Positions 16,663 through 20,617 of a DNA stretch of 64,000 bases are shown one piece after another (the stretch's first letter is position 1; the number at the start of each line of letters is the position of its first letter). The DNA comes from an uncultured Spirochaetales bacterium. Its GTDB lineage: Bacteria; Spirochaetota; Spirochaetia; Sphaerochaetales; Sphaerochaetaceae. The notes beneath the pieces were generated by a model. The model did not search any database. It saw nothing but the letters and a program-made list of their open reading frames with translations, and was not told the origin of the DNA. The position numbers and the translations under genes are program-made. The stretch is from assembly GCA_902773355.1 (NCBI GenBank), contig CACYEI010000068.1, forward strand, positions 1 to 64,000. The letters run 5' to 3'.

Positions 16663-17745
16663 TTATGGTGATACGTAATCAGCAAATCTGTAGTAATCTG
16701 ATAGATTGCTGAATAAATCAACCAAATTTAAAACTGATGTACCTATGGCAAATGATTTTATTGCATTTCTAAGTCTTAAATCTTCTAAATTTATTGAATT
16801 TGAAACAATAGATAAAGCAAATGAAGACAAAACTCTAGTAAATGCCCAATAAAAATTATTTCTTGCTTTATTGTAGAAATTAAAATCAGACATCCATTGG
16901 GGTTTCAGTTCTACATAGATGTTTTCCTGAGGTGATGTTATATTTATTGTTTGCTCAATATAGCCATCTGATCTTAAAGAAATGGATATAGGTAAAGAAT
17001 CTTTAAATACAAACGGAGTTATTCCTGATAATATGCCGTCAAGATAGACGGAAGCATTTACATTTGAAGTTAGATTAAATTCAAATTCAGATTTAACATC
17101 TTCTACACCGTTTTCTAAGTTATAGATAAACTGATCTGCATCTGTGTCATTCATGAATAAATATGCCATGGATTTTAGAACTGAAGGTCCATAAACATCA
17201 GATGTCTGTTTTATTTCACCATAAATTAAATTAATTTCTCTAGTTTCTGTATCATAAGTATATAAAGTTAAATAATTCAAATCAGATAGTTCTTCCTTTA
17301 TTGGAAAAATAATTAAATCTAAATTATATTTATTTGTAAGATATTCAGCTGTTTTATTATTAAGAGATGTAGAATCTATTGAAAAATTTTCATTTATATC
17401 AATAATCTTAACTGTTAAGTCAACTGGTAAAATTGGTTCAATATTGCTGTTGTTATATACAGATTCAGCAGAACTAATATCAGATGCTTTTTCTGATTCA
17501 TATGCTTTGGCTAGATTTCTACCAAGTGTAATTTTGTTTTCTTTATTTAATCTATTATTAATTACTTCAGCAGTACTATCAGTATAATGTTTTTGTAAAA
17601 AATTAATATTTATAAATGATCTTATTTCACTATTATCTGGATAAATTCCTACATTATAGTCAGCTGCATAAATAAAACTACTAAGTATAATTAGAAAAAT
17701 AAAACAAAAAATAAATCTATAATTTTTAAACAATACCATTTTCAT
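16663..17745 (-). CDS. Exported PEGA-domain protein
   Basis: The 360-residue protein has a signal peptide (hydrophobic core [18 protein letters not shown] at about 12-29). A periplasmic region follows, and then a PEGA-type beta domain at about 222-290, seen in [13 protein letters not shown] and [15 protein letters not shown]. The C-terminal 70 residues are mildly hydrophobic. PEGA domains are common in surface or envelope proteins of spirochaetes; no enzymatic motif is seen. The ATG lies inside the end of prfB (20-base overlap); a second Met two codons later is also possible. Precise function is unknown. Confidence 0.65.
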
Positions 17746-18839
17746 TATTCCATATTAAAAAAGATTCAATAAAATTATCAATTTCACCATCCATAACAGC
17801 TTGTATGTTGCCCGTTTGTTCTCCAGTTCTAGTATCTTTAACCATGGTATAAGGCTGAAATACGTAACTTCTTATCTGAGAACCCCATGATATATCTTTT
17901 TTCTCTATAGCTTCAGCTTTATGCTGTTCTTCAAGTTTTTTACTGTAATAATCATATAACCTACTTCTAAGCATTTTAAAGCACATATCTTTATTCATCT
18001 GTTGAGAACGTTCATTTTGACATTGAACAACTATTCCAGTTGGGAAATGAGTTATTCTGACAGCTGAATCAGTTTTATTAACATGCTGACCTCCTGCTCC
18101 TCCAGCTCTATATGTATCAATTCTTATATCATCTGGTTTAATATCAATATCAATATTATCATTTATAACAGGTGAGGCATACACTGAAGCAAAGGATGTA
18201 TGACGTCTAGCATTAGAATCAAATGGTGAAATCCTTATTAATCTATGTACTCCTGCTTCACCTTTTAAAAATCCAAAAGCGTAGGCACCAGAAACTGAAA
18301 TTGTAATACTCTTATATCCTGCAATATCATCTAAAGAATCTAAGATAACAGCTTTAAAATTATGTCTTTCACACCATCTTAAATACATTCTTGTAAGCAT
18401 CCCAGTCCAATCTGAAGCTTCTGTTCCTCCTGCACCAGAGTGGATGGTAAGAAACATGTCTCCAGTATCATATTTCCCATTTAAAAGTGTTTTAAGCTTT
18501 AATTCTCTAAATTCAAAATTTAATTTTTCTATTTTATCATCTATTTCTTTAGATAAAACCAAATTATCAGGATCTTCTTCTTCATATAAATCTATTAATT
18601 CATATGTTTCAGAAATTTGGTTTAAAAGATTAGAAAAAGAAGAGACCTTTTCTTTTAGTGTATTCAGTTCAGAAAAAACTAAATCTGAATTTTGCTTGTC
18701 TTTCCAAAAATTTTCATCTGAAATTTCTTTTTCTAATTCTGTAATTCTACTTTTTATTTTATCAGGGTTAAAGTCCCCTCCAAACTGATTGGGAATCTGT
18801 ATTAAGTTGATCTAACATATTCTTATTATTTAGTATCAT
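17726..18839 (-). CDS. prfB: Peptide chain release factor 2, expressed by programmed +1 frameshift
   Basis: RF2 releases peptides at UGA and UAA codons. The main part, in frame from 18769, carries the SPF anticodon-like motif (ISPFDS), the catalytic GGQ ([12 protein letters not shown]) and the QNERSQ block. A 23-codon leader from the ATG at 18839 is in the other frame and ends CTT TAA; a +1 slip at CTT gives a 370-residue product of normal RF2 length. The ATG at 18839 is preceded by AGGAG nine bases upstream and overlaps the stop of the GH57-like gene; a second in-frame ATG at 18818 has no good ribosome-binding site. The gene is read as 18839-18771 joined to 18769-17726. Confidence 0.93.
18767..18782 (-). 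promoter_or_regulatory. prfB programmed +1 frameshift site with UAA
   Basis: On the minus strand the layout is GGAGG (18777-18781), three bases, the slippery CTT (18771-18773) and the zero-frame stop TAA (18768-18770) followed by C. The spacing is the same as in the classical RF2 recoding site, but the stop is UAA where UGA is the usual choice. Reading resumes in the +1 frame at AAC. Confidence 0.85.
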
Positions 18840-20553
18840 AGATGGTTTCTCCTGTTTTTTTCTTATCTAATCTCAATGTAAACGAACATTCATATATTTC
18901 ATCTGGGTTAATAGTCATGTCCTTTTTTAATTCAATATGAGTATATTGATAAAAATGTTTAATGCCAATAATAGATGAATAATCTCTAACTACATTTTTT
19001 GTATAAATATTATAATTATCTGTAGAATTCAAATTAAAAATAACAGGATTTTTTTTATCTATTAAAGACAGACTTTGAACATTTTCCTGAAATTCCTGAA
19101 AAGATGGTTCTTTTGGAAAAGATAGATCTAAGGAAATAGAATAGATATTTTTATAGATTTTATTAGAATTATTAGTAATTTTTAATGTTAGGAATATGTA
19201 ATTCTGTCTAAATTTATAGTGCTTTTCTATTTTGATATTTGTATGATTATTATGAAATTCAGAAATAAGCAAATAGTCTGCTTTTTTTCTGTCAATATTT
19301 TCTATTTGATATATTAAAGAATTGAATATATCAAAAAATATGCCACTACCTGTATTATAACAAAAATCTAAATGATTATTTAAAAGAAAATATGATGAAA
19401 TATGACCTGACCTTTCATTGATATGAGCCATGTAGTTTTTGTTATACACAGGCATTTCTCTACCATCTAGCTGATCAAATTGGAGAAATTCTGGTAATAA
19501 TTCAAGATTATATAAACATTCTTCCGCTTCACAAATATTCTTATGTGCTAAATTCTGTACTGTTGTATAGTTATAGAATTCTGGCAAATATATCAAAGAG
19601 GAAGAGGCTTTATGTATCAGATTCTCTAAATGTTTTCTTTCATCTGTATTTTTTTTAACAGATCTTAATGAATCTCTTATAAAATTCAATTCTTGATAAT
19701 GTTTAGAAATAACTGGCGTATTAATAATACGTGCATTTAACGAATATTCTTTAATTGATTTAACATCATTTCCATATATACCTGAAGGTAAGTAAGAAAA
19801 AGGCAATCTGTCATTTTCCTCAAGTATTTCTGAAAGTAAAAAAGAAGAGTTTGTATTATCATAGATATACGGAAATATAAATGATGAATAATTACAATTA
19901 CATAAGTAATCTAAATTAAAAAAAAGTAAATTAAATTTAGAAGAACTTAGATTTGATAATAAATTTTTAACATCAGAATAAAATTTTTCAGAATTATTAT
20001 GGACAGAAGCTTCTTTTACAATTTGTGAAAAATCATTGTTTAAAGGGAAAATGATTGCTTTTCTACCCAGTTCATCCATTTTAAATGGATCTTCTGGAAT
20101 TTTTAAATCAGAATGACTGTTATTAGAAATAACCACATAATCTAAAGCACATTTATCTAAAATAGGGACAATTGATGGATTAAAAACCTGATAATTCAAC
20201 CATATTCCATGGGGTTTTTTTGAAAACATCTTTCTAAGATAAGTTGTGGATTTTTCAATTTGCAAACTGATTTCATAGCTTGGTATCAAACCTGGAAAAC
20301 TATCATAGTATGTACCAGTTAAAAGTTCCAATTTGTTTAGTTTGCATAAATTTTTTATGAGCATGTTTATTTCTGCGTGATTTTGTTCCATCCATTCAAA
20401 AATATGTATGCCCAAATATAAAACCAGCTTAAATGAATTTGATTCATAAACTGTTTTTAAAAGAGGAACAAGTAAATTTTCTGTAAGAGCCTTATATTCA
20501 TCATCATCTGCTCCTGCAGGAATCTGACTGTAAGCTCCAACAACGCATTTCAT
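18826..20553 (-). CDS. GH57-like glycoside hydrolase homologue, probably catalytically altered
   Basis: The 575-residue protein resembles GH57 alpha-amylase/4-alpha-glucanotransferases in its N-terminal half. The patterns ELLTGTYYDSFPGLIP (about 76-91) and the WLxxxVFNP stretch at 118-126 are recognisable. Where active enzymes have the nucleophile in WLxER, this protein has W-L-N-Y-Q, with Tyr121 at the glutamate position. The C-terminal half is beta-rich and matches the glucanotransferase C-domain in style. The ATG at 20553 is chosen because GGAG precedes it by nine bases; an upstream TTG at 20568 overlaps that site. It overlaps prfB by 14 bases. It may be a pseudoenzyme or carbohydrate-binding protein. 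Confidence 0.6.
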   Translation of the reverse strand: MKCVVGAYSQIPAGADDDEYKALTENLLVPLLKTVYESNSFKLVLYLGIHIFEWMEQNHAEINMLIKNLCKLNKLELLTGTYYDSFPGLIPSYEISLQIEKSTTYLRKMFSKKPHGIWLNYQVFNPSIVPILDKCALDYVVISNNSHSDLKIPEDPFKMDELGRKAIIFPLNNDFSQIVKEASVHNNSEKFYSDVKNLLSNLSSSKFNLLFFNLDYLCNCNYSSFIFPYIYDNTNSSFLLSEILEENDRLPFSYLPSGIYGNDVKSIKEYSLNARIINTPVISKHYQELNFIRDSLRSVKKNTDERKHLENLIHKASSSLIYLPEFYNYTTVQNLAHKNICEAEECLYNLELLPEFLQFDQLDGREMPVYNKNYMAHINERSGHISSYFLLNNHLDFCYNTGSGIFFDIFNSLIYQIENIDRKKADYLLISEFHNNHTNIKIEKHYKFRQNYIFLTLKITNNSNKIYKNIYSISLDLSFPKEPSFQEFQENVQSLSLIDKKNPVIFNLNSTDNYNIYTKNVVRDYSSIIGIKHFYQYTHIELKKDMTINPDEIYECSFTLRLDKKKTGETIYDTK

Positions 20554-20617
20554 TAATTTTTTCTCCAAATACTAATCTCTATCTTACATAAAAATTTGAT
20601 ATAATCAATATTTTAAT

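Follow-up and report, generated by a model that had tools for sequence, protein, structure and literature searches.

A UAA stop codon in the prfB frameshift cassette of a Sphaerochaetaceae genome

The +1 frameshift site of prfB is among the most conserved bacterial recoding signals. Its stop codon, UGA, is read by RF2 only and gives the switch its RF2 specificity, and UAA, which also lies in RF2's set of stops, is read by both RF1 and RF2. What becomes of the switch when UGA is replaced by UAA? Natural UAA variants allow this question to be asked, in that they bear on whether RF2-specific sensing is needed at all. Here, we analyse such a site in a 64,000-nucleotide stretch of DNA (the window) from a gut spirochaete, whose genome is a 1.18-Mb MAG of 97 contigs with a completeness of 97.8%. 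Judged from the sequence, the locus is best read as the standard prfB autoregulatory +1 frameshift, in which a single G-to-A transition has turned the RF2-only UGA into UAA (rough probability, 85%).

Direct reading of the minus strand gives AGGAG-N9-ATG ... GTT-TGG-AGG-GGA-CTT-TAA-CCC for the prfB leader (Table 1). The original prediction of a 23-codon leader with an AGGAG ribosome-binding site, ending in GGAGG-N3-CTT-TAA-C with the spacing of the classical prfB site, is therefore confirmed. AGGAG-type sites also precede the leader in most relatives inspected. The cassette resembles that of E. coli (AGGGGG-UAU-CUU-UGA-C) in the internal Shine-Dalgarno sequence, the 3-nt spacing, the CUUU slip, the C after the stop, the short leader, and the position of RF2 in the +1 frame. 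It differs in the stop (UAA instead of UGA), in the first residue after the shift (Asn instead of Asp), and in the Shine-Dalgarno sequence (GGAGG). In particular, the leader has an early in-frame stop, RF2 follows in the +1 frame without another usual start, and the stop is one that RF2 can read, but it is not the RF2-specific UGA of the canonical form. The cassette thus belongs to the TAA subset, which makes up 1.4% of published sites (PMC12421855). Downstream of the UAA, the leader frame continues with CCC and then UGA UAA (18759–18764, minus strand), so that readthrough of the UAA would stop at once.

Table 1 Features of the prfB locus (positions in the window).
Feature	Position	Strand	Basis
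Upstream gene, glycoside hydrolase family 57-like; 14-nt overlap with the leader start	18826..20568	-	ORF and profile search
Leader ribosome-binding site AGGAG, 9 nt 5' of ATG	18849..18853	-	Sequence
prfB leader ORF, 23 sense codons, from ATG (18837-18839) to UAA	18768..18839	-	Sequence; leader peptides of relatives align
Internal Shine-Dalgarno-like GGAGG, 3 nt 5' of CTT	18777..18781	-	Sequence; same place in relatives
Slippery CTTT, CTT codon (18771-18773) and first base of the stop	18770..18773	-	Sequence; conserved in relatives
In-frame UAA where UGA is usual	18768..18770	-	Sequence; UGA in all close relatives
C directly 3' of the stop, canonical-like	18767..18767	-	Sequence
RF2 body, +1 frame, 347 aa and stop, SPF and GGQ motifs	17726..18769	-	Profile matches, alignment
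Downstream 360-aa ORF; 20-nt overlap with the prfB 3' end	16663..17745	-	ORF list

Translation with the shift joins the 23 residues of the leader to the 347 residues of the body, and the resulting 370 residues correspond to full-length RF2. The joined product matches the NCBIfam prfB profile (TIGR00020) at 486.6 bits (cut-off, 370) as well as the Pfam domains PCRF and RF-1, and both its leader part and its body align with those of relatives (e.g., MTLENRALLEQLKTESQSIWRGL before and DPEGQK after the site in locus L006). The residue at E. coli position 246 is Ala, the form of RF2 that has a major role in UAA reading in E. coli (PMC5373646). At E 0.001, neither Pfam nor NCBIfam has a match for the 360-aa ORF downstream of prfB.

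The nearest relatives carry TGGAGGGGACTTTGAC, the same cassette with TGA, one base different; over the catalytic part, their RF2 genes are 83–86% identical to the one in the window. Their leaders align with the leader in the window without gaps, in the comparison of related spirochaetes that the original prediction had proposed as a check. The identical cassette with TGA in the nearest relatives indicates that UAA is derived by one G-to-A change. In the family as a whole, the UGA cassette pattern is matched in 128 of 139 genomes, an upper count that may include chance matches, and UAA at prfB, with or without the following C, is found in the source genome only. Elsewhere in the family (138 genomes), the 16-base UAA pattern has only six occurrences, all at loci without an RF2 gene, indicating that its presence at prfB is not a chance match. 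A search for a congeneric genome among the family genomes and GTDB contigs found none.

The novelty that had been attached to the UAA was overstated. Of 12,753 genomes surveyed by Prince et al. in 2025, 8,164 have the shift motif, with TGA in 98.6%, TAA in 1.4%, and TAG in none, and the TAA sites are scattered over several phyla (PMC12421855). Antonov et al. had already given the consensus as YTT_TRA_C in 2013 (PMC3711429). The site in the window is the same cassette with the same substitution as the published, scattered TAA sites (PMC12421855), in this case in a Sphaerochaetaceae MAG. It is a further natural example of an already described variant and overturns nothing. It is useful because relatives with UGA in an identical cassette provide a natural comparison of a single base, in a genome where a third of the genes still end with UGA.

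The 393 genomes drawn from the phylum contain one further UAA site at prfB. In this genome (G170), the site is AGGGGGTATCTTTAAC, in frame with RF2 (locus L147, G170:C1:147500-152000; motif at L147 1847). G170 is 99% complete and 2.0 Mb in size, smaller than most of its family-mates (1.8–3.4 Mb). It resembles the source genome in its UAA, in the Asn after the shift, in being AT-rich (sample GC, 25.3%), and in having family-mates with UGA: 24 other genomes of its family match the UGA cassette, and no other has UAA in the cassette. However, it belongs to a different family and a separate lineage and has its own Shine-Dalgarno sequence, indicating that its UAA is an independent change. Thus, as judged from the cassettes, at least two separate changes from UGA to UAA at prfB have taken place in the phylum.

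None of the other CTTTAA matches in the family and phylum genomes adjoins an RF2 gene. Matches of AGGGGGTTGCTTTAAC in G252 and G261 are on contigs other than those of their UGA cassettes. Site-like matches in G441, G406, G202, G350, and G502 have no adjacent RF2 gene and were rejected as chance. At another matched locus, L236, the release-factor gene is more than 800 bases off, only 40% identical to RF2, and RF1-like.

We next consider the source of the change. The GC content of the window is 27.9%, compared with 40–50% in stretches of three UGA-type relatives, and the share of UAA among stops is 62%, compared with 18–44% in the same relatives, which makes AT drift a plausible source of a G-to-A change. 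The small genome is under strong AT drift, and the change probably arose in this way and not through selection for a new kind of sensor. AT drift alone is nevertheless insufficient, since G194, a member of G170's family, keeps UGA at 27.8% GC; nearly all members of that family keep it as well. Low demand for TGA was rejected as the cause in the source genome, where TGA makes up 34% of stops. An altered code with TGA reassigned was rejected too: as had been claimed, TGA serves as a stop in other genes. Among the 56 window ORFs of at least 100 aa, to which the count of stops applies, TAA ends 34, TGA 19, and TAG 3 (shares of 62%, 34%, and 4% for UAA, UGA, and UAG).

How would the switch work with UAA? 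The ribosome on the leader would come to a pause when CUU occupies the P site and UAA the A site, while GGAGG pairs with the anti-Shine-Dalgarno of 16S rRNA. A search of the MAG found no 16S rRNA and thus no anti-Shine-Dalgarno. If a release factor came first, the 23-residue peptide would be released. If not, Leu-tRNA would slip from CUU to UUU and translation would continue at AAC, so that RF2 would be made with Asn as the first residue after the shift, in place of the Asp (GAC) of relatives. The slip itself needs the Shine-Dalgarno pairing and CUUU, and the stop decides which factor competes, RF2 alone at UGA or RF1 and RF2 together at UAA. In the largest E. coli study of shift-site variants, UAG replaced UGA, and for CUU variants the results with UAG in the next position match those obtained with UGA (PMC5009743), indicating that the slip does not need UGA and that UAA should allow shifting. 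Frameshifting is accordingly expected at the prfB of the source genome. Its UAA is presumably read by both factors, and the RF2 feedback would persist, diluted by RF1's share of UAA reading.

In view of the known codon specificities of RF1 and RF2, it is reasonable to propose that a UAA switch might sense total RF1 and RF2 activity, to an extent that depends on RF1 activity. Published data point in two directions. Prince et al. argue for RF2 as the main reader of TAA in most bacteria, which would keep the site RF2-sensitive (PMC12421855). In B. subtilis, however, Lalanne et al. (2021) observed that ribosomes did not queue at UAA stops when either factor was depleted, and rsbV with a UAA stop was unresponsive to either knockdown (PMC8073009). 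As we read them, these results favour sensing of total release-factor activity and conflict with the argument of Prince et al. The abundance of RF1 matters here. RF1 is scarce in E. coli, with ribosome footprints of 83–87 versus 526–737 (PMC5373646), and with a similar scarcity RF2 would make up about 86–90% of the competing factor by our calculation. In a toy model with RF1:RF2 ratios of 0.12–0.17, a fourfold loss of RF2 raises shifting 2.0–2.1-fold with UAA and 2.3-fold with UGA; at a ratio of 1, the UAA response drops to 1.5-fold. The nearly unchanged response at E. coli-like ratios suggests that a UAA sensor stays mostly RF2-driven.

These data bear on the possibility that the sensor has been rewired, with prfB expression following the sum of RF1 and RF2 as a thermostat of total class-I release-factor activity kept by selection. 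The reading of UAA by both factors, the missing queues in B. subtilis (PMC8073009), and the independent case in G170 are compatible with such a sensor. We consider it unlikely, since UAA is scattered rather than fixed in clades, both in the survey (PMC12421855) and in the family genomes here, since the toy model remains mostly RF2-driven at E. coli-like ratios, and since RF2-specific control would still be useful where UGA ends a third of the genes. Similarly doubtful is the broader proposal that, in AT-rich, reduced spirochaetes, changes from UGA to UAA have repeatedly turned the prfB loop into a total class-I sensor, with an altered balance of RF1 and RF2.

Two further explanations would remove the UAA or the frameshift itself. 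The true base could be G and the site an ordinary UGA site, given that the A is one base in one draft MAG and that all relatives have G. The usual per-base consensus error of a MAG is about 1e-4 or lower. The published TAA frequency of 1.4% (PMC12421855) is far above this rate, which makes a true variant much more likely; in addition, the 99%-complete G170 has the same UAA state, and the remainder of the prfB locus is intact. A consensus error is therefore very improbable. The original prediction had named UGA in relatives, with a consensus mistake here, as what would undo it; the relatives do show UGA, but natural variation is much more likely than such a mistake. Slightly less probable still is that the leader is a relic and RF2 is initiated inside the +1 frame, e.g., at an ATT or ATA near the site. 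The +1 frame is indeed open for about a dozen codons 5' of the site. However, no ATG, GTG, or TTG occurs in the RF2 frame before the TTG at 18562, so the N-terminal part of RF2 needs either the +1 shift or a non-standard start, and the leader, the slippery CTTT, the spacing, and the C are all kept, elements that prfB genes without the shift lose (PMC12421855). The standard frameshift with a UAA stop thus remains the preferred reading.

The other release factors of the source genome were searched as well. Another contig carries an intact RF1 (501 bits; cut-off, 423) with the PET and GGQ motifs. A profile search of the genome for RF3 (prfC) gave none above the cut-off, the best matches being EF-G-like or related GTPases. 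A search of a plasmid collection gave distant matches only. In four other genomes (G001, G005, G011, and G027), the RF2 search returned one gene each, at an identity typical of RF1; either the drafts lack prfB or the gene may have been lost. In two family members (loci L015 and L017), the base that follows the UGA at the shift site is A rather than C, unlike the very conserved UGA-C.
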